DNA from: Tetradesmus obliquus
Taxonomy: Eukaryota > Chlorophyta > Chlorophyceae > Sphaeropleales > Scenedesmaceae
NCBI GenBank assembly: GCA_030272155.1
Contig: CP126193.1
Span: 4,836,001 to 4,900,000, forward strand
Direction: 5' to 3'
DNA length: 64,000 nucleotides
The notes below the pieces were generated by a model. It ran no database searches. It was given only the letters and a program-made list of their open reading frames with translations, and was not told where the DNA came from. Each line of letters starts with the position of its first letter. Position 1 is the stretch's first letter. Shown one piece after another: positions 583-61,429 of this stretch. The translations under genes were made by a program, and so were the position numbers.

Positions 583-2088
583 TTATGATGCCTTGCCCAT
601 GGCCAGTGTGAGGTCTGCCTCCACTGCCAGGTCAGGGCCCACATAGCCCTTTGCATTCATCTTCACAATGCCAAAGCGCTTGTTGTACTTGGTCACCTCC
701 ACACGCATCATCTGCGGGGCAGCAGGCAGCAGCACGACACAGCAGCAGCCGCGTCACGGCTGGCCCACCCAGACACCAACCTGCATGCTTAAGTACTACA
801 CCTGCTGAAGCACTCCCGCAACCCAGCGCTGTGCAGACGCTGCAACAGGGGCGCAATTCGAGCAGGCAAGCAATGCACCCCTATCAGGCTCTCGGCACTG
901 CAAGGACACCACAGCGCCGCAACCACACAGCATCTGAGGCGCCGGCTATGCACTGTGCACTGCAGCTGTCATATGCAAATCCACATACTCGTGGCCAGCC
1001 AGCCTCACCAGTGTGTCACCCGGCACCACGGGCCGCCTGAACCTGCAGCCCTCAATGCCGCCGAAGAAGAACTGCTCCTTGGCCTCCTGGTTGGCGGGGT
1101 CCAGCATCACCAGCCCACCCAGCTGCGCCATGGCCTCGATCTGCAGCACGCCTGCAGCCCACCAGCAGCACGCCAGCCGCCGCCGGTATCCGCGCAGACG
1201 TATGAGGGTTTGGTGCAGTTAGAGTGACGCACGGGTGAGTTACAAGCTGGTGCAAGCATACTGATCCAATGTACACCAGCAGTGGGCGCACCGCGCCCAT
1301 GGCATGCAACGCAATGTACCCTTCGTTTGAATCCAGTTATCTAATATCCATATGCAAAGCTATGACGAAAGAGCAGCGCTGCTACAGCAGAAGAACTCTC
1401 AGCTAGCTGCTGTTGTCACCTGGCATGATTGCACGCTCTGGGAAGTGGCCGTTGAAGAACTGGTCGTTCACAGTGATGTTCTTGTAGCCCACTGCATGCT
1501 TGCCATACTCAATCTCGACCACACGGTCCACCAGCAGGAAGGGGTACCTGGACAGCACCAATGATGCAGCGGAGCATTGGTGTGTTGCCCGCATACGTGT
1601 CACTGCTGATGTTCAGGAGCTGCTGCTGCTGCTGCTGCCGCGGCAGGTGCCCCAATATGCATGCAGCTGAGACTTTGAGACATATATGAGTGCTTGACAT
1701 GGTAACACACAATGAGAGGTGATAGAAAGTCGTTAGCCTAGGCTGACTGCGCAGGCAGGGCAGAGCAGTCAGCTGTGTGAATACTGTGAGTGATGCTCAA
1801 GTGTGCCCCACCCGACGTAGCTGTTCCAATTGTCTAATTTATCGTGTCGGGTGTGCTACTGGCGCACCTGTGGGGCAGCACGCCCTTGATCGCCTCGATG
1901 TCGAGCACCGGCTTGAAGTAGCTCATGCTCTTCTCCGCGCCAGCTGCTGCGGGTGCGGCTGCCTCTGACTCTGCACGCACTGCAACTGCAGCACGACGCT
2001 GAGGCCTCACGGCCACCCTGCTGGCGGTGAATGCACCGCGCCTGGCAGTGCAGGGACCGGTAAGCGTTTTTTGCTGCAGGGCTGCCAT
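583..2088 (-). CDS. fabZ: 3-hydroxyacyl-ACP dehydratase, plastid
   Basis: Four exons on the minus strand: 2088-1868, 1547-1420, 1151-1009 and 711-583, joined in phase to a 206-residue protein. FabZ removes water from 3-hydroxyacyl-ACP in the plastid type II fatty-acid cycle. The first 55 or so residues are rich in Ala, Arg, Thr and Ser and look like a chloroplast transit peptide. The hot-dog fold then begins at [13 protein letters not shown]. The catalytic motif [12 protein letters not shown] puts the His at about residue 108, and the catalytic Glu (LQIEAMAQ) follows at about 122. This His-Glu spacing of 14 is the one known for FabZ. The C-terminal block [17 protein letters not shown] is also typical. 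Start and stop match the family length once the transit peptide is added. The final exon has a diverged tandem copy just downstream. Confidence 0.95.
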
Positions 2089-2378
2089 CTTTGCAGGTCG
2101 AGTACTTCACAGTTTTGCAAAATAATATGGATCCTGCAAAGGTTTGAGCTATGCTGAGGCAATGTATGGGCTTCCGGCAAAGATCAGGAGCGCAGCAGGC
2201 ACTCAAGCAGGCACAATGACATTGACTAAGCAGCCAGGTAACAATTCTAATCCATCCAGTTACCGACCGTTTTCTAGTGTGCAAGGAATGCTGTTCTGGA
2301 TATTAGGGCTCCCCTACACTATTCTGCAGTTGCTGCGGAGCATGCACACAAGCATGGCATCAGCCCTGGAAGCCAGCA

Positions 2379-5300: not shown

Positions 5301-5427
5301 GTGGAGCAAGGTGATGACATGCATCCGCTTCTTGCATCAAAGCAGCGTGGGTCCGGTCACCACCCTGCCAACAGCATTCTATCCCACAAGCGCCGCTCCG
5401 CACCTGCTGCTGAGCATCACTATTCAT
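2379..5427 (-). CDS. CCDC13: CCDC13-like centriolar/ciliary coiled-coil protein
   Basis: Nine exons on the minus strand: 5427-5404, 5271-5140, 4995-4897, 4706-4587, 4375-3983, 3749-3613, 3458-3326, 3114-2968 and 2609-2379, giving 471 residues in phase. Nearly the whole protein is heptad-like coiled coil (LEEQVEQQQKIIRYLQ, DENEELRQQLAALQDDLEE). Three blocks match my memory of animal CCDC13 in the same order: AAKVIELSKKNRSLNLMLEK near residues 45-62; LVREVGEEMPLAKVV...DWKGRREQIIHLKDTI near 130-180; and NDDKLIAALRSEL near 270. CCDC13 is a centriolar-satellite protein needed for cilium formation in animals. The tiny first exon (MNSDAQQQ) is the least certain part, and a longer N-terminus may exist upstream. 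The protein is shorter than the roughly 715-residue human protein, mainly at both ends. Confidence 0.82.
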
Positions 5428-6853: not shown

Positions 6854-8359
6854 GCTGCACCACCTGCCACAAGCAGCCAGGCAGCAACACAAGCATCCAC
6901 TGGCAGCGCAGCAAACTCCACCAGCTGCCTACAAGGAACTGCTGGAAGCCAGCAAACCTTTACGCAAACCCATGTGCTGCTACTACGCCACCTGCTCCAC
7001 TATGTGCCTCACACGAGCACCACCAGCTCCTGCTGCAAGGAGACCACCACGGCATCCAACCCTACCCAGCAGACAGCGCTCGGGGGGCACTGGGCCGTGC
7101 CGATGCTGCTGCAACACCGCAGGCTTGATGCTGGGTGACTGGCAGCGTGTGTGTAGCAGCACAGCATGGTGCTGGTTGCGTTTGTGGCACAGGTGGCACA
7201 GACGCCGTTCACGTGCCGATCAACGTGTCTGCAATATCTGAGAGCTTCGTGCTTGCAGGACCTCATTCAATGCGAGGCAATTGCAACCAGAGCAGCCCCG
7301 GCATCAGGCCAGCTTCTATTACACCCAGATTACACCCAGAGGGTTGTGAAGCTGTGGCTTTGCATTGTGCTGCCTGGTACGCCGCTGTCACTGCCACGTC
7401 CCAAGAGTGGCTGGTTGGATCCCTGTTGATGACAGCTGCCCCTGGCAGAGCCACCCAATGCTGCAAGCATGGGCAGAGGAGCTGCGCTGGCCCGGGCTGC
7501 AGCTGAACAGCTTTCACAAGGCCACTCGGTTGAGCTATGTCTGCTTTGGCAGGGAGCAGCAGCTGCTTTTGATTGGTTTGGCACCATCTGCAGATCATCC
7601 TGCACGCACCCTTCACCGGCCAGTGTACTGGCATGCCATGGTGCATGTATAATCTTCGAATTCTGAGGTTTGGTGAAAGTGTCTGCTTGCCAACCTGTGG
7701 CTGACAAGAAAGGTGCTTGTTGCAGAAGTTGTCAGTGGGCAAATCATCGCCGCAGTGGTAGCAGCGTGTGCCGCCAGCTGGTTGGCGAATGGGAACCAGC
7801 AAGTGAGGCATGTCAGGCAGTGTGCAATTGCAATCTACGTGTCATTTGCGGCTGTCTGGTCAGTTCTGTTTGTGTGCTTGGCCGATGGCAGTGGCTGGCC
7901 AACGGCAAGTGCAACCCTTGTGTAGATGGTTGGGCAGTGGGCAGATATGCCAAATGGCATCGCTGGTGCCGCATCAGCATGAACAGCCGCTCCATTGGGG
8001 CGCGGGGCCGATGGCGTTGATGCTATGGCTTGATGAGTAACATGATGATGATGATCAGCATGAACAGTATGGGGTTCAGGGTGTAATGCATTTGAACAGC
8101 GTCAAGCTATGCCCAGCAGGAAGAGCACCATATGCTATGCGTGCTGGCCGCATGTTTGGTTGACGTACAAGTCAAGTGTGCAAGTGTGGGGCTGATTGGT
8201 GGGTGATCAAAGCTTCACATGCCTCAGTCAGCTGCAGCGCGGCATTTGTTGACAAAACTCCAGCAGAACTCGTTTGACCCATTGAACAGCCATTAAAGGT
8301 CAGACGTTTTGTTTACAAAAGAAATCACTTACTAGGGCTTGGTCCACAACTGCCTGAAA
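6854..8359. other. Intergenic, no gene recognised
   Basis: This lies between the small mitochondrial-type gene and MCU. It should contain the 3' UTR of the first and the promoter of the second. Open frames of up to 182 codons exist on both strands, but they lack domain-like composition and are typical of stop-poor GC-rich DNA. A short ATG/GAT run lies near 8040. Confidence 0.4.
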
Positions 8360-13516: not shown

Positions 13517-16500
13517 GCCGCAGTCCTGCACGAGCACAAGGGCCCTGTGCTGCCCGCCAACATGCTGGCGCTGATGACGGAGCTGGAGAAGCACGGGCCG
13601 GCCTTCGCGGCAAAGATGCTCATCACGGTGCTGGGTGAGCGCTGCCAGCGCAGGCAGAGAGAACACGACGACAGGGAAGGGCAGAAGCAGCAGCCTGGCA
13701 GCCGGGCGGGCAGAGTAGCTTTAATTAGAACAGCTGGGCGGGCTGCCTTGCATGCTTGCTAACATTGAGCGCAGTAAGTGTTAGCTGTTGCGGCAGATAC
13801 ATGCTGCGTGCTCGTCTCAGCAGTGGTGCAGCTGCATTCTGTTGCAGCTTGTTTCTGTTGCTTGTTTCTGAGGTGTGCGTGCTGGCCGTGTGCTGCTGTG
13901 CAGGCAGTGAAGACAGGGGACTGGTGTACCAGACAGACACAGACGCATCTGTGCTCACAGCAATCAGGTGCGGGCAGCAGCGGCCATGACCAGCAGCAGC
14001 GGCAGCAGCAGCAGGAGCGCAGATGCATGCGGCAAGGTGTTCCAGGAGCCAGCTGTCACAGCAGTGGCTGCATCTGTATATAGTTGAGTGGTGTGGGCAG
14101 TGTTGCTGGCCCCGTCTGCCGCTAAGATGTGCTGCAGCACTCATAATGCCACTTCAACATCTTCATGCAGCAACCTCACAGGATGGGCTTCCTGCAAGCT
14201 AGCCGTTGTGGCTGAAACGCAGTTCTGCTTCAACCACATGCTTCCCTGCTGCTGGTGTCGCTGCTGCTGCTGCTGCTGCTCACCTGCCTGCCTTGCTGCA
14301 TCCCGCAGGGACATGTTCCTGGGTCAGCGTGATGGGGGCCGGCTGGTGCACCGCCTGGCCATCTTTGATGCGCACGGCGACATCACACACATTGTGTCAC
14401 ATGTGGACGTGCTCAGGTGGGCGCCCCAGGGCATTCCTGCAGCTGCTGCCAGCCAGCCAGCCTGGCAAACCTGCATGTACAGTGAGTTCTATCCTAGCAC
14501 GTGCAGCTAGTCCAAAGTCAAAGCAACTGTGCACAGCTTGTCCTGCTGCCAAAGTTGCAGCACCACCTGCCTGCACCACCCGCAGCCTGCCTGCCCCCAT
14601 GCTGCTGTCTGCTTTCTCTGTTCTCCTGTGCATGCCCAACCACAAACCACGCGGCCGAGTACAGAAACACTCTCTAATCTTCGTATGCTGCTGCCCCATC
14701 ATTAATGCACCCGCAGGTTCCTGCTGAAGCACCAGCAGCACCTGGGCCCCGCAGCAGGCCAGTCGCTGCAGCAGCTGGGCCTGCTGGGTGCTGAGCGCAC
14801 GGGAGCACTAGTGCTGCTGGAGCCTGCCACACCCACACTGCTGGCCTATGAGAAGCTGGCGGCTGCTGGCGTGACGGGTGCCCCTGTGCTCAGCAGCGAT
14901 GGCCAGATCATTGCCAACCTGAGCGCGTCAGACATCAGGTGGGAGGGGGCCAAGGGGTGTGGTGTGATGCTTGCTGTCCACCTTTTGTCTGTATCGTATG
15001 TGCTGATGTGATGCAATAGCCAGATCATTGCCAACCTGAGCGCGTCAGACATCAGGTGGGTGGGGGCCAAGGGGTGTGATGTGATGCTTGCTGTCCACCT
15101 TTTGTCTGTATCGTATGTGCTGATGTGATGCAATAGCCAGATCATTGCCAACCTGAGCGCGTCAGACATCGGTGGGTGGGGGCCAAGGGGTGTGATGTGA
15201 TGCTTGCTGTCCACCTTTTGTCTGTATCGTATGTGCTGATGTGATGCAATAGCCAGATCATTGCCAACCTGAGCGCGTCAGACATCAGGTGGGTGGGGGC
15301 CAAGGGGTGTGGTGTGATGCTTGCTGTCCACCTTTTGTCTGTATCGTATGTGCTGATGTGATGCAATAGCCAGATCATTGCCAACCTGAGCGCGTCAGAC
15401 ATCAGGTGGGAGGGGGCCAAGGGGTGTGGTGTGATGCTTGCTGTCTGCCTTTTGTTAGTGTCATATTTGCTGATGTGATGCAACAGCCAGGTCATTGCCA
15501 ACCTGAGCGCGTCAGACATCAGAATGGTGGGTTTTGTAGCAGCTGACAGTGTGAGGGAATGCTTGCCTAGTTTTGTGCTTCATGTCCTGATGGGAGATAA
15601 CAGCCAGATCATGCAGATGGCATGCATGTTTCATACCGCGCAAACTATCAGCCTCTACTTGACTCTGCCTTGTTGCGTATATGCACGGTTGCCCACCTGC
15701 AGGGGCATCCAGACAGACCACTTTGGTGAGTGTGCTAAGCGCAGCTTGCTGTACAGCCATCCCGGCATCGTGCAACATCTTGTGCTGCTGGAGATTGCAG
15801 CAAACAGTTGGGCATGCTCATGACATGCTGGCATTGCATGACTCATTTATGGTAAAAAGCCTGTTTGTTATGGCTGCGGCTGGAGCATGAGGCTGGCATC
15901 CTGACACAGAGTGTGCTGTATGCAACGACATGTCAAATTGCCAACATGCATGCTGTGAAGCACAGCTGCAGCCATCAACTCAACCCACATGCAAGGGCAC
16001 TGACATCTGCTCGGTCTGTCTATCTGCAGGCGTACTGGCGCTGCCAGTGGCGGAGTTCCTGGCTGTGAAGCACGGCACAAGCTACCTCGGCTACTCGCAG
16101 CACAGCAGCAAGGGCGCAGCACACCCCTTCTTTGCCTCACGACTGCACAAGCACGAGCAGCAACCCATGCGGACCACAGGCGCCGACGCAGCAGATGCGG
16201 CAGACGCAGAGCAGGCTGCATCAGATGGTGCTGCTGCTGCTGCTCCTGCTGCGGCAGCTGGTGGGGCGGAGAGTTTGGCGCGCACTGGCAGCGGCGCAGC
16301 GCCGGGCAGTGGCCGCAAGCAGCCGCCGCATTCTCCAAAGGGCAAGGACCTGGGGGCGAGTGAGGACGTGCCGCTGATCACTTGCAGCAGCTCCGCAACG
16401 CTGCTTGAGGTGGGTGCAGGGTTCGAGGTTTATCGGATGTGCTTGTGTTTGTATGTAGTGTGGCTGTTGTTGTGCCGTGCTTTGGCGGGTCTCTGTTTGT

Positions 16501-16742
16501 GACAGCTGCGCTTGTCGAAGGGGAAAGTTGGCTAGCCGGATGTAGCTCTGCTACACGTTCCTGCCGGCTTGTTACAGTGCAATGCACTCGAAACTGCCAT
16601 AATCACACAACAGGGATTGTTGTACAGCTCATGCTCCATCCTAACGTGGCATGCATGACTCCGCCCTGAGCTGCCCAGCTGTACTGTGCTGTAAAATGTT
16701 CCTTGCCTGCCTGCCTGCCTGGCTGCCTGGCTGCCTGCCCGG

Positions 16743-16773
<31 letters not shown>

Positions 16774-16818
16774 GCTGCCTGCCTGCCTGGCTGCCTGCCT
16801 GGCTGCCTGCCTGCCTGG

Positions 16819-16849
<31 letters not shown>

Positions 16850-17873
16850 GCTGCCTGCCTGGCTGCCTGCCTGGCTGCCTGCCTGCCTGCCTGGCTGGCT
16901 GCCTGCCTGCCTGCCTGCCCGGCTGCCTGCCTGCCTGTCTGCCTGGCTGCCTGGCTGCCTGGCTGCCTGCCTGCCTGGCTGCCTGCCTGCCTGGCTGCCT
17001 GCCTGGCTGGCTGCCTGCCTGCCTGGCTGCCTGCCTGCCTGCCCGGCTGCCTGCCTGCCTGTCTGCCTGGCTGCCTGGCTGCCTGCCTGCCTGGCTGCCT
17101 GCCTGCCTGTCTGCCTGCCTGGCTGCCTGCCTGCCTGGCTGCCTGCCTGGCTGCCTGCCTGGCTGCCTGCCTGGCTGCCTGCCTGCCTGCCTGCCTGCCT
17201 GGCTGCCTGCCTGCCCGGCTGCCTGCCTGGCTGCCTGCCTGCCTGGCTGCCTGCCTGGCTGCCTGCCTGCCTGCCTGGCTGCCTGCCTGCCTGCCTGCCT
17301 GGCTGCCTGCCTGCCTGGCTGCATGCCTGGCTGCATGCCTGCCTGCCTGGCTGCCTGCCTGCCTGGCTGCCTGCCTGGCTGCATGCCTGGCTGCCTGCCT
17401 GGCTGCCTGCCTGGCTGCCTGCCTGGCTGCATGCCTGCCTGCCTGGCTGCCTGCCTGCCTGGCTGCCTGCCTGGCTGCATGCCTGGCTGCCTGCCTGGCT
17501 GCCTGCCTGGCTGCCTGCCTGGCTGCCTGCCTGCCTGCCCGGCTGCCTGCCTGCCTTGCTCCTGTGCTGCGTTTGCAACCATGCATCTACTGTATACTTC
17601 GTCTTTCTGCATCCGCAGGTGCTGCAGGTCATGTGCGACAATGTGGTGCACCGCGTGTACGTGGTGGAGAAAGGCGCCAAGCCACATGAGGTGGTGGGAG
17701 TGGTCACACCCACTGACATTCTGGCCCTGGTGGCTGGCTTAGGCAGCTGGGACAAGGCTGAAGGGGCCATGGCCAGCAAGCGCGCCGGTGGTGGCAGCAG
17801 CAGGCAAGAGGAGGGAAAGAAGCCTAAGGTGGATGAGGCAGAGGCAGCAGCAGATGAGGCGGCAGCCAGCTGA
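12567..17873 (+). CDS. Four-CBS-domain SNF4/AMPK-gamma-like protein
   Basis: Ten exons (12567-12674, 12781-12883, 13113-13154, 13524-13634, 13904-13967, 14309-14416, 14717-14938, 15703-15725, 16030-16409, 17619-17873) join in phase to 471 residues. CBS motifs recur four times: ADALKTLARHNILSAPLVV plus WLDVKDIIKAFL; SVLTAIRDMFLG plus THIVSHVDVLRFLL; YEKLAAAGVTGAPVLS plus NLSASDIRGIQ; and VLQVMCDNVVHRVYVV plus VGVVTPTDILALV. Each ends in the S/T-x-x-D-I/V nucleotide-site pattern. Two Bateman modules of this kind bind adenine nucleotides in AMPK-gamma/SNF4 and occur in plant CBSX-type proteins. There is an Ala/Gly/Ser-rich insert before the fourth CBS and a basic/acidic tail. Intron 7 holds a 117-bp splice-junction array and intron 9 an 850-bp GCCT repeat. 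The start is the first ATG in the open frame; the substrate or partner kinase is unknown. Confidence 0.88.
14904..15525 (+). repeat. 117-bp tandem array carrying exon-7 tail and donor
   Basis: Six copies begin at 14904, 15021, 15138, 15254, 15371 and 15488 (steps of 116-117 bp). Each unit holds the last 12 codons of CBS-gene exon 7 (QIIANLSASDIR) and, in the first five, the GT donor region and about 80 bp of intron sequence. The first copy is the real exon end. The third has lost a base at the junction, and the sixth lacks the GT after CAG. The preceding AG in each unit could serve as an acceptor for an in-frame 36-nt mini-exon. Confidence 0.95.
16702..17556. repeat. 850-bp GCCT/GGCT tetranucleotide repeat
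   Basis: An almost pure array of CTGC and CTGG tetramers fills most of intron 9 of the CBS gene. Because the unit is four bases, it reads through as a 12-base cycle with no stop. That creates spurious open frames of over 300 codons on both strands. Confidence 0.97.
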
Positions 17874-18622
17874 TGGAGTGATCTGTAGGCGGGCTGGGAA
17901 CAGGGCGACTTGTGGTATCTGTGGCTGTGCTATGCAAAGGGCAATTTTCCCTTGAAGCTGTTTGTTCGGGTTCAGAGGTGGTGTGTGAAGGGATGCTGGG
18001 GGAATGGAGGTGCTAGTGGTGATGACGCAGTACAGCTGGCAGCTGAAGCTGGCTAGCCAGAGCGCATGCATTCTCAGACTGCACATTCTGTCGCTGTCAG
18101 CAGACATGGGGGTTGCAGGTCGCCAGCAGGTCAGATGCACGCATTGGGTGGCAGTTTGCAGGCGGCGTCGTTGGTTGGCGTTCCAGATGCACTTTGCAGC
18201 TTCATAGTTTGTGGGCTGCCTTGTACCATAGTTGACTGTGATGCACACGTGATGTCACTTGTGAGGCTTGCAGCTTTCACGGTTTTCTGCGTTAGCCAGC
18301 AGGCAGGGAACCTGGCAGAGTGTGGGTCCTAGCATCTGGCACCTCAGTGCAGTACGTCCTGAGACTTGACTTGGACATCCTTCATCGCGCAAGTTGGACA
18401 ACCCATTTTTGTAACGAAGCAAAAAGAATTTCACCTCATCATCATCATCATCATGTTACCATTTAAGCCATAGCAACGTCGCCATCGGCCACGCGCCCCA
18501 CAGGAGCGGCTGAAAGAACAGGCGAAGGGGGAAGGGGAAAAAATTACCTCAACATACCAGCTGGATGCAGCCAACTAGCCTGAGGCGTGGCAGCATGCAA
18601 ACGCTCAAAATCCCCGCACAAT
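17874..18622. other. Convergent 3' region
   Basis: This lies between the stop codons of the rightward CBS gene and the leftward RimM gene, so it should contain both 3' UTRs. A short CAT run (about 18436-18454) is present. No gene was seen. Confidence 0.5.
18410..18414 (+). terminator. Possible poly(A) signal TGTAA after the CBS gene
   Basis: TGTAA lies 537 bases after the CBS-gene stop, preceded by a T run. It is the only good match I noticed in this convergent region. Confidence 0.4.
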
Positions 18623-24655: not shown

Positions 24656-26456
24656 GCTGTAGGTTGTTGTTGGATCTTTCAATCACGATGACGCTGGGGC
24701 GGCACGCTGCCACTGCAGCAGCAGCAGTATGAATTGATTGTGACCACGCTCGTCTTTGGTATGCTGTGCGCTGGGCACAATCCCACATGGGGTGCAGTAG
24801 CCTCCAGCATAGTGGCAGCTAATCAACAATCGTTGTGCAAAGGAATCATGGCAACACAGCTGCAGGCAGCTTGCCACCAAATGACGCTGGGCAATAAACT
24901 CAATGAGTGTTATGTTTGCTGCAGCTGTGTATGCTCTGTATCGGCACTCTTGGATGGTGCTGTTCAGTACAGGCTTGACTGACGTATGATGAACATGTGG
25001 CACAACTGATCATGTGGAGCGGTGATGACAGCAGTGTTCAATCTCTTACCTGATCTGATGGCATGCATGCCCCTTTTGCAGCAGGTGGTGCATGCGTGCT
25101 ACCTGGCTCCCAACATTCACATTCATCATCACTTCCAGTTGATCACCCATTGTTTCTTGTTGGTCAATGCTCGCCTGCATTCAGGCGGTGGCCTTGGATC
25201 TTGGCAGATTGTTGAACCAACTTCATCCATGCAAGCCCATCAACCCCATACATGCAGCTGGCAGATGCTGTCTGCTTGGCTGCATGTGAACCAGCAGGCT
25301 TTCTTGAGGATGCGGACGCGTGGTGCGTTGACGAAATGTTTTGCAGGGTGCAGTTGCCTTCTCACCTGCCTACTATAGAAAACGTGCTAGATGCCTGTGC
25401 CCTCATTTCATGAAATGAGTAAGCAATTTTTACTCCTGCAGGCAGCATGAAAGATTGGCGGTGGTATCCGTGCTGTTTGTCAGGTTTCTTGGTGTGTATG
25501 TGTGAGGTGTGGCAGTGCTATTTGATGATCTCTGTGCAGTGTGTGTTCCACACTGTTTGCACCCTGCAGCATTCCGGCTCTGTAGGCTATTGCAGTTCCA
25601 TGGGCATCCATAGCCATTGGCACATCAGGTTACACCGCACCAGTATATGCAACAGTGTTTTGTCCATTACACTTGGTTGTACCGATTGCTTGGTGCCTGG
25701 TGAATGCCATCTTTAGGGTGCCACACAGCAATAATAATAACCCGCAAACCATGTCGCGTACTGCACATTTGATGCATGCCGCTTGGGCTGTTGTTTGGAC
25801 CATGCTTGTAACGTTACGTTGTTAACATGGCAACACTATGCTGCTCCTAGACTGCAAAGAACCAAGAATGCATAGCTGCGCACCTGCAAGTAATGCTGGA
25901 CCAGGAGAGTCCTTGTATCAAGCACAGCAGACTCTGCTGTTGTTCAGCTGCACTGCATTTTTCAAGCAGCAGCCAGACCTGACATGAATGTAGACAAATT
26001 CTACACAAATCCAGGCTCAGGTTGAACTTCACGCATTCAAGCAACCCTGGCTTTGCGCCATGCCGCCCTTTTTATATGTTGAAAGGTCTACGCTCTCAGT
26101 GAAAGTGAAAGTGAAAGCGCCTACGCTCTCTTTTCAGAGAGCGGAATTAACGGAGGGCAAAGGACAGGGCCATAACACCGCGTAACAGTGCCACGGGACT
26201 CCCGCCCTTCCCCTACGACAAGCTCTGCCGTCTACGCTCTCATCGCAGTGAGCCGAATCAACGAAGACACAAACTGCTTCTTCAACCACGAAACCAGGTC
26301 TTAGGACCACAGCTGTTTGGGTTTGACGAACTTGCAACACTGTGTACACATATCGCAAGAGCCGTGACTTACATCAGACTGGTAATAATCCTCTGGTATG
26401 TTAATTCACGCGGAAGACAGGACAGCATCCACTCCCAATCGCCCGAAAGACCAGCG
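24656..26456. other. Long intergenic region with repeated hairpin element
   Basis: No gene was recognised. Short open frames only. Near its right end lies the CTACGCTCTC repeat cluster listed separately, a few hundred bases upstream of the PQAK-repeat gene. Confidence 0.45.
26088..26260. repeat. CTACGCTCTC repeats with perfect hairpin
   Basis: CTACGCTCTC occurs at 26088, 26121 and 26232. The middle copy forms a perfect 7-bp hairpin (CGCTCTC and GAGAGCG around TTTTCA, 26124-26143). Three GTGAAA units lie between the first two copies. Downstream sequences of copies two and three are also similar (GGAATTAACGGAG versus CGAATCAACGAAG), so this is a diverged tandem repeat of about 111 bp. Confidence 0.8.
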
Positions 26457-27381
26457 ATGACGAAAGCCGAACTCCTCGTTTGCCTGGGGCTGCTGATTGC
26501 CTCAGAGCGCCTGTTGTGCGCCGGTGAGCAATATTTGAATTTATGTAAAGCTATTATGTGGTTTATTGTCGCAGGTCGGGGCGTTTGGCTTTGATCCTAC
26601 GGGCTGAATATATAAACTCCGGAACCAAGCAACGCCCAGCTAACCTGCGCGCCCCGCTGAAACTCATACAAAATGAACCTTGTTCAGGCACTCATTAATT
26701 TCAACGGCTCACTGACCCAGGGCAAGGCTTGCTGTGCAGCTTCTCGTATGTCACTGCCTTTGCTCCTGCTCAGCAGCAGTGCTGCTGCTGCTGCTGCTGC
26801 TGCTGGAGGGGGTGCTGGACATTATGTATGCAGCTGACGGCCCTGCCTGTCCCGGCTGCTGTGTGCACTCCTGCCTGACTGTGCTAGATGCCGCAGCTGA
26901 GGCCCTGGAGAGGGACACCCACTGCCGGCACCTGCTGAAGATCATCAGGAGGGTGCCACCAAAGGAGCCTGCCCCTCAGGCCAAGCCGTACACAGCACCG
27001 GTGCCCATGATCGTTCACAGGAAGGCGCCTGTGCCTCAGGCCAAGGCCTACACCGCACCAGCGCCAGCACCAGAGCTCAAGGCCACGCAACCCGGCCGCC
27101 TGCTGCTCAACAGCAACATCATTGGTAGGCCAAGGCACACGTCGTCCCTGCCTCAAGCCAAGGCGTACACTGCACCAGTGCCCATGATCGTTCACAGGAA
27201 GGCGCCTGTGCCTCAGGCCAAGGCCTACACCGCACCAGCGCCAGCGCCAGAGCTCAAGGCCACGCAGCCCGGCCGGCGCCTGCTCCAGGAGATCAGGAGG
27301 GTTCGTGAGCCTGCCCCTCAGGCCAAGGTGTACACTGCACCTGTGAAGGTCCCAGAGATCAAGAAAGCACCTGTGCCTTGA
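26457..27381 (+). CDS. Unknown Cys-rich protein with PQAK-YTAP repeats
   Basis: I do not recognise the family. The model joins exon 26457-26523 to 26834-27381 in phase, giving 204 residues. The first exon is a clean signal peptide (MTKAELLVCLGLLIASERLL, then CA). The second starts ADGPACPGCCVHSCLTVLD, Cys-rich, and a further Cys follows at DTHC. The rest is Pro/Lys-rich, with five visible copies of PQAKxYTAP and a 59-codon unit repeated almost exactly (27001 and 27178 onward). This suggests a secreted wall- or matrix-type protein. An alternative first exon, 26673-26745 (MNLVQALINFNGSLTQGKAC), follows a TATA box, has a matching phase and gives a version without a signal peptide. The stop is a TGA where the repeat expects CAG; the frame then continues with AKAYTAPVMV to a TAG at about 27438. 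Confidence 0.62.
26609..26616 (+). promoter_or_regulatory. TATA box (TATATAAA)
   Basis: A perfect TATATAAA lies 57 bases before the ATG at 26673. It sits inside the intron of the signal-peptide form of the PQAK-repeat gene, so it would drive an internal start at the alternative first exon 26673-26745. Confidence 0.6.
26990..27285 (+). repeat. 177-bp coding tandem repeat
   Basis: Two near-identical stretches beginning at 27001 and 27178 encode VPMIVHRKAPVPQAKAYTAP and the following APAPELKATQPGR. The 177-bp step is 59 codons, so the frame is kept. Confidence 0.9.
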
Positions 27382-32687: not shown

Positions 32688-34893
32688 GCAGAACACGTCC
32701 TCCTTCAAAACGGACCGCCTCAGCTGGCTAGTCCTGGATGAAGCCGACCGCCTGCTGGACTTAGGCTTTGAGGCAAAGCTCAAAGAGATCGTACAAGCCC
32801 TAGCGCAGCGCGCAGCAGCAGCAGTCGACAACAGCTTTGCGCCAGCAGCAGGCGAGGGCCAGCTGCAGTGCCAGACTGTGCTGCTGTCTGCTACATTGCA
32901 CCCGGGGCTTGCGGGGCTAGCTAGTTTAAGTATGCGGGACCCTGTGGGTGTAGGGTTTGATGCGAAGCAAGTGGATGGCCAGCTGCAGCTGCAGGAGGAT
33001 GCAGAAGCAGGAGGCGCTGCTGGAGCAGCAGCAGCAGCAGCAGCAGCAGCGCCAGGGCAGGGGAAGTTTGAGCTGCCGCAGCAGCTGCAGCAGCGCTATG
33101 TGGAAGTGCCAGCTAAGGCCAGATTAGTGGCACTGATAGGCGTGCTGCGCAGCCGGCTGCGCCGCAGCAGTGAGGCCAAGCTGGTGGTCTTCTTCTCCAA
33201 CTGCGACTCAGTGGACTTCCATCATGCGCTGCTGCAGCAGCCGCAGCACGGCGGCAGCAGCGAGCAGGACGGCTATGACACTGCTGCTGCTGCTGGGGGT
33301 GAGGCTGCTGGGGGTGAGGCTGGGGAGCTGCTGCTGGGCGGCTGCCCCTTGCTGAAGCTTCATGGAGATATGAAGCAGCCAGAGCGCACCAGCTCATTGG
33401 TCACCTTTTCCAAGGTAAGAAGGGTTTGCATCCATGCCGGTAATAGTCTGCTGCTGCTGTTGCTGATGCATCCTGCAGTGGGGAAGGCAGGCGGAACCCA
33501 GTGTACCAGCTCATTGGTGACGTTCTCCAAGGTAGGGCAGGTCTGCATATGGGCGCCTTTGATGATCTGCTGCTGCTGCTGCTATTGCAATATGTACCCT
33601 GGAGTAGGGATTGCAGGCGGGACCCAGGGGTTTTCAAACGTTCGAAAACCCCTGGCTCCAGGACTGCTTGCCGCACATGTAACCCCCACGGCTATTAGGG
33701 AGCCCCGAACAGTCGTGCAGCATACACGCCTGAACAGCAGCTGCCTTGGCTGCACCTCCTGCTGTTGATCTCTGCTGCATACGCCCACGTCAGCCTGCCC
33801 CTGCTGCTGCTGCTGCCTCTCAACCTCTCCTTTCTGCGCAGGCCAAGTCCTGCGTGCTGCTGTGCACAGACGTGGCTGCACGCGGCCTCGACTTCCCTGC
33901 AGTGTCCACCATCATCCAGTACGACCCCTCAGGCGACCCTGCTGAATACGTACACAGGGTGGGCCGCACAGCACGCATGGGGCAGCAGGGAGAGGCGCTG
34001 CTGTTCCTGCTGCCCAGTGAGATGCCGTACGTGCAGCTGCTGCTGCAGCAGGGAATGAAACTGACTCAGGAGCAGCTGGCTGGACTGCTGCAGTGCCTGC
34101 CAGCGCTGGTGGGCAGGGGCGGGCCGTCACTTGCCGTGCAGCAGATGGTGCGGAAAATGCGCAAGGGAGCAGCAGCAGCAGGGGGTATGGCCAGTACCAC
34201 TGGCAGCAGCAAAGACGGCAGCAGCAGAGGCAGCGCGCAGGGTTCAGCAGCAGCAGCAGCAGTAGGGTTTGATGGGTTGGAGGGGGTGCCTGGGGTGAAG
34301 CCAGAGCAGGCGGCAGCAGCGCTGCTGCTTCAGCGGCAGCTAGTGGCGGTTGTGTCGCGGGACGCTGAGCTGACGCGCATGGCCACCAGTGCTTTCAGGT
34401 GAGGGTGGTGAAGCGGCCAGCAGTAAGCAGAGTGTCCCAAATTGCGTGCCGGCACCTGCGTAGCTGCCCTGCAACGCCTGCGCACACTGCAGCTGACATG
34501 CCAGTCTGCCCCATCACCGCTGCCGCTACTACATCTCATCTGCACTGCCTGTGTGCCTGTGCTGTAGCTTGGTTCGTAACATGATTCTTTCTACAAGGTG
34601 ACGCTGATGGTGATGTACTGCCTCTGCTAAATTTACTTGCATGCAGGTCCTTTGTGCGCGCGTACACCACGCACCCCTCAGCCATGAAGCATGTGTTTTA
34701 TGTGAAAGGGCTGCACCTAGGGCACCTGGCAGCTAGCTTTGGCCTGCGTGAGGCACCCAGCAAGATTGGAGCAGCAGGCTCTGCAGCGGAGCGCAAGAAG
34801 CGCAAGCTGGAAGGCAAGCATGCAGCAACAAAGCGCGAGAAGCAGGCGTGGCATAAGCACGCAAAGGCAGCTGCAGCGATGGGGCGGGGCTAG
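29162..34893 (+). CDS. DDX31: DEAD-box RNA helicase DDX31/Dbp7
   Basis: Ten exons (29162-29251, 29334-29706, 29977-30155, 30520-30924, 31212-31325, 31634-31711, 32061-32216, 32692-33414, 33842-34398, 34647-34893) give 973 residues in phase. DDX31/Dbp7 acts in the nucleolus in 60S ribosome assembly. After a Gln/Ala/Lys-rich N-terminus come the helicase motifs: Q motif ([15 protein letters not shown]), I (SPTGSGKT), Ia (VPTRELAVQ), GG region ([17 protein letters not shown]), Ib (TPGRLLDH), II ([12 protein letters not shown]), III (LLSATL), IV ([13 protein letters not shown]), V ([12 protein letters not shown]) and VI ([10 protein letters not shown]). The C-terminus [19 protein letters not shown] and [16 protein letters not shown] is diagnostic for DDX31 rather than other DEAD proteins. 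The start is the first in-frame ATG of exon 1. Introns 7 and 8 contain copies of the preceding exon ends. Confidence 0.95.
32263..32446 (+). repeat. Two echoes of the DDX31 exon-7 end
   Basis: The last part of exon 7, with its donor, is repeated at 32263-32324 (encoding [20 protein letters not shown]) and more briefly at 32411-32446. Exon-end positions are 32216, 32321 and 32443. Both copies keep a GT after the ACG codon. Confidence 0.92.
33493..33535 (+). repeat. Echo of the DDX31 exon-8 end
   Basis: ACCAGCTCATTGGT and the following TCCAAG|GTA junction (33388-33416 in the real exon) recur about 118 bp downstream, in intron 8, with neighbouring intron sequence also alike. The copy keeps a GTAGG donor. 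Confidence 0.88.
33624..33655. repeat. 32-bp near-perfect palindrome
   Basis: The arms CCAGGGGTTTTC and GAAAACCCCTGG are exact inverses, and the 8-base centre is itself almost palindromic (only one base pair breaks symmetry). It lies in intron 8 of DDX31. Confidence 0.9.
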
Positions 34894-44523: not shown

Positions 44524-46203
44524 AGCAGCTTGGCTGCGCGCAGGGGGCTGTAGCTGGGGTGCAGTTCGCAATTGTGGCTAGTTAGCTGCCACACCCAGAA
44601 TGCAGCAGCAGCATCGCGCAGGCTGTTGCATGTTCTTGCAAGCTGATGAGCAGCATCAGGTTGCAGCGTGCAAGGGACCAGCAGCAGCGCTGTGCTGATG
44701 GGAGCAGAAGGTGGCTTGCCTGCAGGCGTGCGTCTGCATGTACAGTCAACAGGAGCATTGATTGGGCGGCAGCAGCAGCTGCTGGTGAGGGAACCGTGAA
44801 GAGTGTGCCTGCTGCTGGCAGCAGGCGTGATTTGTGCATTCGCTACAGCTGGCAGCTGCAGCTGTGAACTAGTAGGTAGTGTCTGTGATGCTGGCTGTGT
44901 TGGTCAGCCGCGTGGTGGCTATTGTACTGGCATTGGTAGGCGGGATTCGTAACATGATAAGAACGAGGCATGCAAGGTATGCTTGTAGCTGAAGTACGGT
45001 CCTTGATCACAACAGGCGGCCGCCCAAGTACGCAATGTGGTTGGGCAACAAAAGCATCTCTCACTGCTCACAGTACAAAGAGTTGCAGATTACACGGTGC
45101 AGCACTGCTGTCGGACACAGCATCGTACTGGATGACTGTGGACAAAGCAGCGTCAAAGGCAGATATTTCAACATGCCTCGCCAAGCTATGCATGGCATGC
45201 TATGCACGGCATCAGTCCTGCGCATGCGTGAAGCCTCAAAGAACAACCAGCGATATATTGACTGTATAACATGCCCGGCTGACCTGCAACTGTGCCAGAG
45301 GCCAGGGGCCCTGACTAGTGCTAGTTATCACAAGCAGGCATAGCAGGAAGTTCTGCGGCCAAAAGACCATGCACTGCAGCCAGGCTGCAGTCTACTGTGA
45401 ACGTGCTCCAAATCAGTGACTGCAATTGTGTGTAATGGAATGCAACCATAGCAGCATCGTGTCCACCAACCACCTGCATGCACTGCAGCCTTCCACACCC
45501 AGCAGCTGCACAACCTGATGCTGTAACATTAGGACCACCTGGATACAAGGCCCTACCATTTCAGCAAGCAGTTCCAACGCAATTCTAACGGCCATGGTGC
45601 TGTTGGGGCATCCTGGGGCAGCACATGCACATCAGCTTCGCGTCAACTGCACCCCCATCCCCCTTGCAATGCACCCAGGCACAGCTGCAAGCACGCAACG
45701 GGCCGTAAAGGGTGAGCTGTGCACTCCACAGAAACCTCCACCAACCGCGTGCAGTGCTGTACGAAGGGTGCTGTAAGTGAAACTATGTGTACAGTGTCAG
45801 AAGGGCCATGTACGTGAAACCAGGCACGCACGGGACGCCCACGCTACGGCCGACTTTCCTCATAGAGTAACAACAGAAGTGCTCCACGAGAGAGTTGCTG
45901 CACGCTGCAGGTGGCTGTGCATATTTGCCACTTGTGACGTGTCAACTCAACACACAATTGCTGAGGCCCAAACCTTACAGGCGTATCAGGGTCAACCCCA
46001 ACTGTCCCCTCCCTCTCACTCTTGCCATACATACATGATTGTCAGTCAACCCAACTACATGCGTCCCCAAAGCATCAGAACTGCTGTATTGCTTGCTGCT
46101 ACCCTCCCCATGTCCCAGCCAACAAAACACGCACACCCTGCAACTTACTGTACAAACTCTGGCTGCGACCCCAATTGCCTGCTTGTGCATTACGCCCCAC
46201 AGA
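44524..46203. other. Convergent 3' region
   Basis: This lies between the stops of NTF2 (rightward) and DP (leftward). A plus-strand TTACA near 45975, read as TGTAA on the minus strand, lies about 230 bases past the DP stop and may be its poly(A) signal. No further gene was recognised. Confidence 0.45.
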
Positions 46204-53440: not shown

Positions 53441-53472
<32 letters not shown>

Positions 53473-53881
53473 CTGAGCCCAGCAATAGTACAGTAAGCAA
53501 CGGCTCCGTTGCACCAGCAGCTATCTCCTCCATGCCTGCTGCAAGCAGCAGCACTCCCAGCACGTCAGCCACGGACAGCAGCCATGCTCCACAGCTGATA
53601 GTCAATCGTGCAGACAGCGCCAGCCAAGCACCTAGCACTGAGCCAGTCGCTGCAGGCTCTGCAGCAGGCGCGGGTGCACCAGAGGTGTGGCACCCGTGCC
53701 TGCACGAAGGCTTCTCAGCAACATACGACCGGCTGGCATATGACGGCGCAGCAGCTAGGCCAACCCAGGTGAAGATTGGGCCTGGCTTGCTGCTGCAGAC
53801 AAAGCTGTGCGCGCAAACCCTTTTCCTCGTGCAGCTGCTGCGTGACTCACACCCGCATGCATTCCGACATGCTCGCATTGC

Positions 53882-53921
<40 letters not shown>

Positions 53922-55360
53922 ACCAGTGCTGAAAGTGTCAGCCTGCACTTTGGTTCCTCCCGCTGCTGCATACCCTGAGCTCACGGCTTTGCAAACTGCC
54001 CTGCTGTGGCACAAAATACTTATATTTCCCACCTAGGTGGTGCTGCGTGGGCAGCCCAGCTGGCGCAACTGCCTGGCGCTGGTTGATGCCGTGGTCAACG
54101 CCTCCGCGCCCTGCCAGGCCAGCGTGGCCAGGCCAGCCTGCCGCCTGGGCAGCGCCCTGCCGGAGCACCAGGGCAGCTTCCTGGCCCTCACAGGTGCGGC
54201 ACGCACGGCACACCACACAAGATGTAACAGCAGGTGTATTGACAGCTAGGTTTAACGTTTAACTGCCTGAGATGTGTGGCTGGTGCTGCCCTTGGGCTGG
54301 TATTTGCAGCTGTGCTTGTGTGTCACCCAGAGGGTGTGCCCCTGCCAGGCTCTGCAGCGGCAGATGCTTTGCGTAGTTTCATCACATGCGTGCTGCTGAC
54401 ACTGCTGCAACATCGCGCGGCAGCACAACCAGCAGTAGCAAAAGCGGCAGCTGTGCCTACTTCCCAAGGCGCACATGTATACACACGAATCATGTGACAT
54501 GATTGTGCCGCTTTTTGCCGCATGGCTGTGCCGCAGGGTTCTACGTGGTGGCCAAGTTCCTGGGCGTGCCGCATGATGCGCCGCTGGGTGCGCTGCTGGA
54601 TGCGTCCAAGGAGCTGTGCGCGCGGCCCTGGCCCTGGGTGAGCGGGCTGGGTGGGGCTGCGTGTGGCGCATGTGTGGCTGCATTGCATCAGTCGTGTAGT
54701 ACTACTACACAGCTAGTAGCTGTGGTGTACGGGTCGCGTAGCATATGCTTAGTGCTGCAGCTGGTAGCACAGCAGAAGGAGACTGCTGCGCATGTGTGGC
54801 TGCACTGCGTCAGTCGTGCAGTAGCTGTGGTGTATGGCAGCTCAGATCGGCAGCTATGGCAGGACCTGTTCTGGTGACACACACCTTTGCCTGCCCAACA
54901 GGGCTGTGTGCCCGCTGCAGCTTTTGACCGTCTTATCCTTCACAAGCGTCAGTTCAGTCAGACACAACGTGCGCACACCATGCTGATGCAGTTATTGCAT
55001 GCGAGTACATTTTCTTCAGTTGACACACGTGTGTTGCCTGCGTTGCCGGCTGCCCTCTTCCCCTTGCCATGCTTGCTCGTTGTCTGCAGGTGAGCGAGCA
55101 CTTGGGATCCAACATCAATGTGGAGCGCTACTGCACCTGGGGGCCGTATGTGGTGAAGCTGCTGCGGCATGGGCTGCGCCTGAAGGACAGCGCTGTGCGT
55201 GTGGGCAGCGGTGATGTTGGGTGGCCACTGGGGGCGGCACTCGCAGAAGCCAGCAAGCTGCCTGACATGATGCAGCTGGCAGGGGCCGCAGCGAGCAGAG
55301 GCAGCGCAGGTGGACGAAGCAGGAAGGAAGGTGCATGGGCAGCTGCGCCAGCTGCACGGG

Positions 55361-55396
<36 letters not shown>

Positions 55397-56710: not shown

Positions 56711-59605
56711 TCACAGGTTGACCATGTTCTGCATGCCGTCCAGCACCTTGATGTACTTGATCTTGTCACCCACCTGCGCCAGGGCATCAGCAGCAGCAGC
56801 AGCAGCAGCAGCAAGGTGGCATCAGCAGTGAAGCAGAGGAGGTGCAACAGAGTAGCAGACACGGTAGCACGGACATGCCAGTCTTAGACAGCGCAATGCG
56901 ACTCCTTATTACCTCCGCTATTCCAATGCTTGCAGTACATGCGGGTCGTGATGCAACAATGCGCTGAACCATCACGTCCCTAAGCTAGCACAAGCGCCGC
57001 ATACCAGCACACTCTCCACAGTTTCAGACACTTTTCAAAACACATGCACTGCTGCTGCTGCTGCCGCACCTTCATGAGCCCCAGGTTGTCCTGACCATTG
57101 ACTGCGTAGCCAAACACTGCGTAGCGCCCGTCCAGCAGGTTGGCGCCGCTGGGCGTGAGCTCGCTCTCCTTCAGCAGAAAGAAGATCTGCGCAGCAAGCA
57201 GCAAGACAGTTTTAGGTGCAGTGTGGAGCTCGCTCATTGTTATGTCTACTGTTGAACTTAGCCTGCATGTGGTGCGCAGCACAAGCAACATGCGGGCATG
57301 CTGCATCAACACTGACGAAAGCACTGTGGTAGGGCCACACTGCATTAGGAACCGCCTTTAGCCGCCGCACCTGGCTGCTGGCGGAGTTGTTGTCGAACTC
57401 TGCGCGGGCCCAGGCCAGCGTGCCGTACGCGTTGAAAGGCAGCACGGGCTGCTCGTTGAAGCGGCCCAGGTCCTCCAGGTTGATCTCATACACTGGCTCC
57501 TTGTCACCCACCACCTTGATCTCCATGGGCACGCTGCAGATAAGCAAAGGGTTAACAGGCAAAAGAAGACAAAAGGGAGTCAGATGGATGTCAACAGCAT
57601 GCGTACGCTGTTAATTCATACCAACACCTTGATCTGCATGGGCACGCTGCATGTGGGTGGTGTCAAATGGCAGTCAGAACATAAGAAAAGAGGGTGCAAG
57701 AGGGTGTGTTTTGAAGCGGCCCAGGCCCTCCAGGTTCATGACAAACACTGGCTTTTTATCGCCCACCACTTTGATCTCCATGGGCACACTGCGGCGGTTT
57801 CTTGAAAAACAAAGGACAGGGACAAACAGCGATTAGAGGTATGCAGCGATGTAGCAGTATGTAGCGATTCAGCAACTCTGTCCACCATCAATTGCATATA
57901 GCGGCAAGCTACAGGTGATTATCCAGTGTTGAACGGCAGCTCCCGCCTTATCGTTCCTAGGCCGTTCCAACTCACGTTAGTAGGCAGTTCAAGTCACACA
58001 AAACAGTTACTCACCGCCTGACCTCCCCAGTGGCAGGGTCCTCGAAGCCCTCCTTGTGACTGGGCTGCAAGTAACCTTCACACAACACAATTTCTAACAG
58101 GAAGTTCCTACTCACGCAAAGTTCCCACTCACCGCCTGACCTCCCCTGTGGCAGGGTCCACAAAGCCCTCCTCCTTGTTGCTGGGCTGCAAGTAACTTTC
58201 ACACAATACAATTCCTAGTAGGAAGTTCCTGCTCACAAAAAGTTCTCACTCACCGCCTGACCTCCCCTGTGGCAGGGTCCACGAAGCCCACCTCCTTGTT
58301 GCTGGGCTGCCCGGTCTGCACCACAAAGCCGTCAGCGCGCTGGATTTCCATGTTGTCGTAGAACTTGCGAGACACCAGGTCCACAAACTGGCCAGCAGAT
58401 ACTGGCGCGTTGTAGCCGTCAAGCACCAGGGTGAGTATGGCGTCACGGGGGCCCTCAGGGGTCTCTGAGAGTGACACCAGCATCTCCAGCGTAGCGCGGC
58501 CCTGCAGGGGTGCGTATCACAAGAGAATAAACAGCAGCAGGCGTGTGCGTTGAGTACAGTCATTTGTGAGAGTGACACCAGCATCTCCAGAGTGGCGCGG
58601 CCCTGCAGCAGCAGTGAGCAGCAGTGTGCAGGACAATAATGATTGCAGCATGAGTAAGCCAGGATGTGGCGTCACGGGGGCCCTCGGGGGTCTCTGAGAG
58701 GGACAGCAGCATCTCCAGAGTGGCGCGGCCCTGCAGCGACGCGTTGTGTGCAGGAAATGACGTGCCAGAGCAGCAACACACAAGAGTGTGTCAAAACATG
58801 CCTTGCGTTGCTCAATGTGTTGCTGCAGCATGTTATATAGGTGGCTGGCGCCGCGGCATGCTGCGACATGCCGATTAGGTGCTGCTGCTGTGGCGCAGTT
58901 GGAGGCGTGGCTGCGCAGCCCACGACCAAGGGGTTGCTGCTGCTGAGCAGCCGCCTGCAATCCGCTCACAACACAAAGCCACATGCACTGCCAGCAGCAC
59001 AACATATATATCACAGCTGAAACCACTCTAGCTGCCACCCTCTCCTCTCTCCCAACCTTGACCGCCATGCTTAGTCCACTGTACAGCGAGAGTGATGCAT
59101 TCAAGCGCTCACAGCAGGCCTGAAAAGATAGAGGACGCCGTGCAGCCCACAGCAAGGCAGCTGCAGGGAGTCTCAGCAAGTCAACAAGCACGCACCTTGA
59201 GCAGCGGCCTGTTGGCGTACTCCTTGGGCACCTCGAAGGGGAAGCCCTTCACCATGGCCTCTTCAATCGCGCCGACCGTCTCCAGGCACTCACGCTGCTT
59301 GATGGGCACCGCCTGCTTGTCCTTGGCATCAATGATGGCCTGGAACTCTCCCAGCTGCGCTGACAGCTTGTCCAGCAGCGCAGCACCCTCGTCCTGCATG
59401 GAACAAGTACGATTGCGGTTACGTGCGTCGTGTGGGGATGGCAATGGGGTGAATGGGGTAACGGCAAGCCGGTGGCACGGTAAGCAAAAGTTTGGTGGAT
59501 GGATCAAGAGCACAAACTCGAATGTTGTAGCGCTGCTGAGTGCTGCCACAACTGTTACTAATACTGCACATGATCGCAAAGTTCAGCAGCGAAACGTGTA
59601 ACAAC

Positions 59606-59657
<52 letters not shown>

Positions 59658-61058: not shown

Positions 61059-61096
<38 letters not shown>

Positions 61097-61429
61097 GCTG
61101 CGGGGTGATGCACTGCTCCTCACCAGCACTGGTGCAATGGTCAGCGGCAGCGCAGTGGTGGCCGCAGCCAGCAGCGTGATGGCACATTTTTGCAGGAAGT
61201 TGGGCTCCTACATACACAACATCGCAATGTGTATGTAAGCATTGCTGCTAAATGCCTCCAGGCACAGACGCAGCAGCTGTGATTGGGATGCCACCTGTAC
61301 CTGCTGGTCACCACCAGCCTTTGCCTGGCACAGCACTGCTGCCCTCCTGCCCGTTGCGGGCTTGAAGGCGCACTTTGTCTGGCTACGTGCTGGAGTAAAA
61401 CAGGAGGTCACACGCGACTGCAGCGCCAT
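56711..61429 (-). CDS. CYP37: Thylakoid-lumen cyclophilin, CYP37/CYP38 type
   Basis: Ten minus-strand exons (61429-61301, 61207-61124, 60786-60676, 60236-60168, 59749-59675, 59393-59196, 58501-58254, 57533-57371, 57186-57070, 56773-56711) give 418 residues in phase. CYP37/CYP38 (TLP40) proteins act in the thylakoid lumen; CYP38 aids photosystem II assembly. Targeting is two-part: a basic transit peptide, then a hydrophobic lumen-transfer segment ([21 protein letters not shown]) ending before an AHA cleavage site. The helical N-domain spans about 95-222 ([20 protein letters not shown]). The cyclophilin-like domain follows: [55 protein letters not shown] and [20 protein letters not shown]. It ends [19 protein letters not shown]. 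The motifs fit plant CYP37 better than CYP38. Three exon borders have tandem echoes in adjoining introns. Confidence 0.9.
57606..57792 (-). repeat. Two echoes of the CYP37 exon-8 start
   Basis: A short copy (VPMQIKVL, about 57613-57647) and a long diverged copy lie upstream of the true exon 8 in the gene sense. The long copy, about 57706-57789, encodes [19 protein letters not shown] and then EGLGRF, and is preceded by a CCGCAG acceptor. Confidence 0.88.
58012..58310 (-). repeat. Three-copy array of the CYP37 exon-7 end
   Basis: The end of exon 7 ([18 protein letters not shown] and its GTGAG donor) plus intron sequence is repeated with copy starts at plus-strand 58251 (real), 58130 and 58012. 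The steps are 121 and 118 bp. At least the middle copy also has a TTGCAG before it, so it is framed like an exon of 53 nt, which would shift the frame if included. Confidence 0.93.
58555..58740 (-). repeat. Two echoes of the CYP37 exon-7 start
   Basis: The head of exon 7 ([21 protein letters not shown]), with its CTGCAG acceptor, recurs twice in intron 6. The outer copy is nearly full (58735-58670) and the inner one shorter (58607-58565). Acceptor positions are about 101 and 128 bp apart. Confidence 0.92.
59611..59656. repeat. CTG/CAG microsatellite in CYP37 intron 5
   Basis: About 15 triplets lie in the intron between exons 5 and 6, read as CAG in the gene sense. Confidence 0.9.

Follow-up and report, generated by a model that had tools for sequence, protein, structure and literature searches.

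Exon-end copies in the window

The window is a 64,000-nucleotide stretch (C3:4836001-4900000) of the Tetradesmus obliquus genome (104.66 Mb, 17 contigs, G+C 0.57). It contains four genes in which an exon end is copied, once or several times, into the neighboring non-coding DNA. We call these copies echoes and the distance between adjacent copies the step. The gene names fabZ, four-CBS, DDX31 and CYP37 are those of the first-pass annotation; Pfam gives three of these genes a supporting domain (FabA-like, DEAD or cyclophilin). That annotation had listed seven border sites (one in fabZ, one in four-CBS, two in DDX31 and three in CYP37), and all seven are present, each being either among the 19 near direct repeats detected in the window by self-comparison or recovered by a finer offset scan. 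Six are splice borders and one is a gene end.

The gene-end site lies in the fabZ-like gene on the reverse strand (PF07977, E 2.2e-33). The last exon called by the gene finder (583-711) is the source of a 47-bp echo at 477-523, which is 87% identical to 602-648 at a step of 125; BLAST pairs 345-523 with 460-648 at a step of 115. In the four-CBS-like gene on the forward strand, whose PF00571 match is below the cut-off (22.1 vs 24 bits), the final 43 bases of the exon at 14717-14938 are the source of five donor echoes within 15013-15522 (starts 15013, 15130, 15246, 15363 and 15486; steps 117, 117, 116, 117 and 117). Tandem Repeats Finder (TRF) reported 117-bp units that are 97% alike in this array, and the final spacer has an identity of only 0.65.

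The DDX31-like gene on the forward strand (PF00270, E 5.5e-41) has echoes at two donor borders. At the first, which spans 32158-32459 with steps of 105 and 122, the exon end at 32158-32222 is followed by one echo at 32263-32327 (step 105, identity 0.92) and a second at 32410-32446, whose 37 bp are identical to 32183-32219 (step 227, that is, 105+122). At the second (33383-33627), a source of 32 exon and 17 intron bases (33383-33431) is echoed at 33500-33548 (step 117), with an additional weak pair at 33466-33501 (step 126).

In the CYP37-like gene on the reverse strand (PF00160, E 4.5e-20), an acceptor border (57456-57537; 78 exon and 4 intron bases) has two echoes within 57621-57792, at 57621-57650 and 57711-57792 (steps 113 and 142). 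Another exon of this gene is echoed on both sides. Its donor-side end at 58262-58310, a predicted border, is the source of two echoes at 57978-58185 that form a 2.5-copy array (unit 121, 89% by TRF; whole site 57978-58310, steps 118 and 121). Its acceptor side (58438-58515; 64 exon and 14 intron bases) is the source of two more at 58567-58744 (steps 101 and 128). The gene finder labelled echoes at 32379-32443, 58015-58064, 58141-58185 and 58579-58602 as exons; we judged these calls at the DDX31 and CYP37 echoes to be wrong.

Two non-coding examples with a similar step, also listed in the first-pass annotation, were recovered on the forward strand. The pair at 26121-26266 (step 111) is without an exon part, and the pair at 54666-54823 (36 bp, 92%, step 122), in an intron of a gene that the sequence reader named apyrase, is without a confirmed exon part. 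An intron-interior pair at 28255-28706 (forward strand, 74%) has a step of 258, about two units. The window also holds repeats of other kinds: an 853-bp TGCC-type tetranucleotide array at 16704-17556, whose opposite strand has a long open frame encoding R/Q/P/G repeats; a coding-like Pro/Ala-rich repeat (QAKAYTAP) at 26974-27395, with steps of 117-177 and different in kind from the border echoes; and a 72-bp inverted repeat pair at 7984-8055 and 18441-18512, 86% identical and 10 kb apart.

Echoes exceed chance in a 314-kb sample

The sample comprised the window, 100 kb of C1, 100 kb of C2 and 50 kb of C7 (314 kb). Gene models were predictions from an unsupervised gene finder written for this analysis, which used sequence only and converged on donors CAG/GTGAG and acceptors CTGCAG/G (slash at the splice site). 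It predicted 425 introns (424 used later) with a median length of 266. A Tetradesmus-like green alga has been described with 107.7 Mb, 57% G+C, 7.8 introns per gene and a mean intron of 462 bp (PMC5966456).

From each border we took as many as 150 bases of exon with 20 of intron and aligned them to the remainder of that intron, using 392 introns of at least 80 bases. At score 18, matches were found for 27 of 392 donors and 24 of 392 acceptors, with 1.75 expected for each from unrelated introns. Reverse-complement probes matched at one donor and one acceptor of 392 each, and a control intron two positions off, on the same strand and within 6 kb, gave 1/300 and 3/300. An excess at splice sites outside the window had been named beforehand as the check on the first-pass claim; it was found in the 314-kb sample, above both chance and the controls.

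For intron counts we required a score of at least 24 and at least 20 exon bases. By this definition echoes are present in 33 of 424 introns, about one in thirteen of those sampled. Echo introns were unevenly distributed (window 5/92, C1 14/134, C2 3/134, C7 11/64; P = 0.0013), their frequency being about eightfold apart between the C2 and C7 blocks. Repeats also occurred in intron interiors (26/392 at score 20, none expected), and by our own count 16 of these 26 introns hold a border echo as well.

For replication at the protein level we searched the whole genome for pairs of nearby Pfam matches that cover the same part of a profile, with AAA, GTP_EFTU and proteasome profiles (for AAA, scoring covered 19 of 178 first-look candidates). 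Twenty-two pairs share at least 10 profile positions. Twelve of them, in 8 of 62 gene-like clusters, share at least 20 positions within 1.5 kb, a count that leaves out seven pairs with 10-19 shared positions and three more than 3 kb apart. The offset was 136-349 in 11 of the 12; the twelfth (677) contains internal stops. The pairs lie on C1, C6, C7, C8, C11, C12 and C16, of which C6, C11, C12 and C16 are outside the 314-kb sample. Some pairs, being seen at the protein level only, may be real exons or insertions.

The first-pass annotation had argued from its many independent sites for an ongoing process. We observed echoes of a range of ages, up to the ~97% alike units of the CBS array, and this range suggests that the process is still running in this lineage.

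Echoes share a step and lengthen introns

The shared step, earlier a hand count, was borne out: the range 94-188 takes in 55 of the 60 adjacent steps, and these 55 average 125.4 with an SD of 17.6. The steps are partly dependent (CBS supplies five of them, and an intron echoed from both of its borders, for instance C1 33299, is counted twice). Fresh and decayed sites have a common step. A blind offset scan peaked at 100-140, with a second peak at 220-260, over a background per 20 bp of 0-0.7 at 600-2500 and 0-0.4 at 1000-2500; both peaks appeared in exon-noncoding, noncoding-noncoding and exon-exon pairs. The narrow unit of ~125 bp hints at a single mutational mechanism.

Introns with an echo have a median length of 418, and those without have 258. 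Subtracting 123 per echo from the former gives 243; echo introns are longer by about one unit per echo. The earlier proposal that the echoes are a route to new introns or alternative exons found no support. The echoes sit inside existing introns and lengthen them, and their steps show no reading-frame preference (remainders modulo three 18/19/18).

Anatomy of copy and spacer

The copied block comprises 24-89 exon bases and 0-20 intron bases, 20 being the limit of the probe, and shared blocks are 30-103 bp long. Ungapped identity over the 30 exon bases beside the border was 0.82-0.88. It dropped at the splice site from 0.84 to 0.57 at donors and from 0.88 to 0.44 at acceptors, where the lower values are for intron bases 7-12, with six consensus bases left out and fresh arrays included. 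The first six intron bases were no better matched than between random introns (0.69 vs 0.68 and 0.78 vs 0.78). On the exon side the block edge is sharp (identity 0.266 beyond it, 5/33 significant). On the intron side weak remnant homology was significant in 12 of 33, which suggests that the unit once extended into the intron; this comparison took 33 of 38 rows, the five left out coming from four fresh arrays.

The description of the echoes as copied in tandem holds in part. Whole units are plainly repeated in the fresh arrays only, namely CBS, C1 62979, C7 45517, C7 44116 and CYP37. Spacers reach 0.88-0.99 in the first four, and the CYP37 units are 89% alike by TRF; lower spacer values occur inside the same arrays (besides the last CBS spacer, the last of C1 62979 at 0.79 and the first of C7 44116 at 0.61). 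In 27 of 44 comparisons the spacer has no significant likeness to the next stretch.

Such spacers, together with the sharp exon-side edge, would be expected if repair or replication copied the exon end only, ~125 bases away, by a template switch out and back, the spacer never having been duplicated. Against such patch copying stand the intron-side remnant homology and the fresh arrays, which duplicate whole units at an identical step; it also offers no reason for the patch to end at a splice site. We regard it as unlikely, though still deserving some weight.

The copy-spacer-copy layout also resembles an insert between duplicated target sites, as an introner-like element or transposon would leave. 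Introners likewise mark many introns of one genome by one process (PMC9860276). However, no shared family sequence was found here: both spacers tested (2/2) match only themselves in the 104.7-Mb genome, by a search that skips very common words and so leaves rarity unproven, and the 314-kb sample held no dispersed pair longer than 250 bp. Nor did we find short target duplications of the introner type, the shared blocks being 30-103 bp vs the 3-9 bp given for introners in PMC9860276. We rejected the spacers as mobile elements on the two tested, and insertion appears scarcely credible as a general explanation.

Two further candidates were rejected. Reverse splicing into CAG sites was prompted by arrays with GT...CAG spacers (C7 block 45063-45700 and CYP37); by eye, an AG precedes the echo in only ~4 of 20 donor cases. 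Short end homology as a trigger was rejected because a further, partial copy past the final echo was significant in only 4 of 31 (combined P = 0.09). In the C7 array just named (C7:2045063-2045700), an exon piece of exactly 60 bases is repeated with 72-73-base GT...CAG spacers, and each copy could splice in frame; by eye, the gene resembles a putative proteasome ATPase.

Drift, selection and re-copying

We simulated drift by duplicating 125-bp units across the donor borders of echo-free introns, letting exons change synonymously and the rest freely, and applying the same detection. Among simulated donor echoes with an exon identity of at least 0.84, the spacer fell below 0.68 in 7-12%, depending on the indel rate. 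The observed figure was 11 of 15 (P = 6e-8 against 0.12). The simulation covered donors; 19 of 20 donor rows were returned and four of these were left out (steps 214, 217 and 256, and one exon identity of 0.68). Two of the long-step rows meet the 0.84 limit, and adding them makes the figure 13 of 17. Comparison of adjacent spacers understates similarity where there are higher-order repeats, as is the case by eye for C7 26018, one of the 11. On this simulation we rejected whole-unit tandem duplication followed by neutral drift. The misfit means that the exon part and the spacer differ in age, or that one of them is kept.

We then compared exons with 58 echo copies, several per array. Differences by codon position were 63/940, 44/957 and 143/944. 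The third-position ratio of 2.7 (0.151 vs 0.056, the average of positions 1 and 2) compares with 1.6-2.0 in the neutral model, and the 119 synonymous and 100 non-synonymous codons give a non-synonymous share of 0.46 (100/219), compared with 0.53-0.62. Non-synonymous variation between echoes exceeds chance (P = 0.015). These data lean mildly to constraint and, taken together, make weak constraint on some echoes possible. Echo-echo differences by codon position were near neutral (0.158/0.123/0.219) in a set of 27 pairs that are not independent; the set leaves out 10 CBS pairs, and 16 of its pairs come from two arrays. All seven exonic indels (7/7) are one base long and shift the frame, and four echo codons are stops. 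The GT survives in 24 of 26 echoes and the AG in 23 of 28, about as many as drift would allow. Donor echoes are hardly weakened in splice score (median 8.8 vs 9.9 bits for real donors), and acceptor echoes are weakened (5.3 vs 10.5 bits).

Selection might keep echoes as alternative or decoy splice sites or as alternative exon ends. The better preservation of the exon part than the spacer fits this reading, as do the third-position lean, the low non-synonymous share and the near-normal donor scores. The clearest of the few whole-exon copies, C7 33739 (C7:2033746-2033992), adds to it: a 77-base exon is echoed with both splice sites and differs by 6 synonymous changes and 1 non-synonymous change. 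From its sequence, this exon and its echo could be a true mutually exclusive pair. Most echoes, however, are partial exons that cannot replace the exon, so the pattern of mutually exclusive exons with both splice sites copied is not the general one. The lack of frame in the steps, the frameshifts and stops, the near-neutral echo-echo comparison and the weakened acceptors likewise count against function, which we consider quite unlikely. Near-neutral echo-echo rates and frameshifting indels give no support to the idea that echoes are preserved chiefly by coding constraint, and we conclude that the echoes are probably mostly neutral and mostly untranslated.

Given the frameshifts in the echoes and their almost neutral change across codon positions, we infer re-copying from the exon, which appears the likelier reason for their freshness. 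Runs of exon-echo identity were weakly clustered (mean mid-p 0.42, n = 36), the lowest values arising partly from ungapped comparison across an indel, and this analysis (n = 36) caught no abrupt converted tract between exon and echo.

Position of the arrays

The script placed 32 of 47 arrays at borders, 8 as exon-exon and 7 as non-coding. Hand reading of the other 15 gave seven at a border or in a bordered intron, four non-coding only (steps 101-127) and four exonic only, the last being three weak arrays and one simple repeat. The border lies inside the duplicated block in 32 of 47 arrays by script and in 39 on the hand recount, from an overlay on predicted gene models. The recount thus stands at 39 border to 4 non-coding arrays, one of the border arrays (window 26974-27395) being a doubtful coding repeat.

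The best pairs were exon-noncoding in 28 arrays, exon-exon in 10 and noncoding in 9, where random placement gives 0.29, 0.24 and 0.47. A random 125-bp unit that touches an intron is interior in 0.46-0.47 of cases. The border excess was significant even against 0.41 (4/42 interior, P = 7e-6, binomial); this calculation took 38 border arrays, the recount being 39 plus 4, with 4 exon-only. The excess is partly one of survival, because decay is slower in pairs of which one copy is exonic. All five arrays with repeats longer than 250 bp and steps below 250 are at borders. The sole other long pair, apart from a 4.4-kb duplication, is intergenic (C7 2042-2937, step 443). That duplication (C2:3007041-3015839) is a perfect tandem repeat of 4,400 bp with a predicted gene of three exons and 185 residues (including the stop), and is either very recent or an assembly error; dating by this gene pair failed because the copies are identical.

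If random tandem duplications arose everywhere, as in minisatellite turnover, border pairs would stay detectable longer through their conserved exon copy. Non-coding arrays with the same step do exist (4 of 47), and, the introns being so short, roughly half of such duplications should fall at a border. However, the simulation with exon constraint fails on spacer identity, the five long arrays are all at borders, and the narrow unit size is left unexplained. We judge minisatellite turnover to be very unlikely. The arrays also differ from a minisatellite of many near-identical 10-100 bp units, which was not what we found: the unit is 125 bp, mostly in two or three diverged copies, with longer arrays at CBS and C7 26018 (six copies each) and at C7 45517. 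The 39 to 4 border excess goes beyond random placement, and mutation plus tolerance would be insufficient to produce it unless exon-linked copies live much longer.

Discussion

The explanation that we favor, and think somewhat better than an even bet, is recurrent local tandem duplication of ~125-bp blocks that cross an exon border, tolerated through splicing, with later re-copying from the exon. The copies, the steps and the intron lengths behind the duplication part of this model are direct observations. Blocks of ~125 bp across a donor, an acceptor or a stop would be duplicated locally and repeatedly, each event leaving one complete splice site or stop beside the real exon. Because a complete splice site is left there, splicing can skip the extra piece; we infer that it would treat the second exon piece as intron, so that the duplication would be tolerated, lengthening the intron by one unit. 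With time the copy would diverge in its intronic part and remain close to the exon in its exonic part. The latter would be occasionally re-copied from the exon, presumably by gene conversion or by template switching, the direct repeats being ~125 bp from each other.

Single border duplications are already known. In a potato RdRp gene, tandem duplication across an intron-exon border, with copies that inherit the splice signals, made a new intron (PMC4974935). The duplicated block crosses the border in that gene as in T. obliquus; the potato case concerns one gene and a new intron, whereas here 33 sampled introns have been lengthened by one unit size. Intron gain by tandem duplication of an exon piece bearing AGGT (Rogers 1989 and Hellsten 2011, as described in PMC4974935) and by exonic tandem duplication in Drosophila (PMC2891723) likewise involves a local tandem duplication made harmless by splicing. 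There, however, the exonic duplicate becomes the intron, whereas the block here already holds a real border. Wholly exonic duplication with AG/GT in each copy is not the pattern of the 47 arrays; the echoes sit in existing introns, and the exon-only arrays are the four weak or simple repeats noted above.

In the green algae Chlamydomonas and Volvox, tandem repeats are concentrated near intron-exon junctions (PMC3887541), as they are in the introns studied here. That scan covered units of 1-50 bp only, and the accessible text of the report makes no mention of exon-end copies. Short tandem duplications might arise by mutation through CST with Pol alpha-primase, which makes small tandem duplications at broken ends after Cas9-made breaks in mammalian cells (PMC8355091); in the parts of that report available, neither splice borders nor a 125-bp unit appears. 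In the literature open to our search, which mostly left subscription journals uncovered, we came across no account of exon-end copies laddered at a ~125-bp unit across a genome.

The source of intron length and of new introns is an old open question. The 33 introns in 314 kb that hold copies of their own borders, at varied stages of decay, allow intron growth to be studied directly. The same introns allow study of the fate of duplicated splice sites and of the choice between two near-equal donors. Gene finders are affected too, since several echoes are predicted as exons. A bolder reading, which we put forward tentatively and hold to be well short of probable, is that a running process copies ~125-bp blocks at exon ends and that the exon rewrites its own echo, a form of exon-to-intron concerted evolution, leaving about one intron in thirteen with a preserved pseudo-exon, mostly with GT or AG intact. 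If this is true, the process would drive intron growth across the whole T. obliquus genome and keep in reserve material from which new splice forms could arise.
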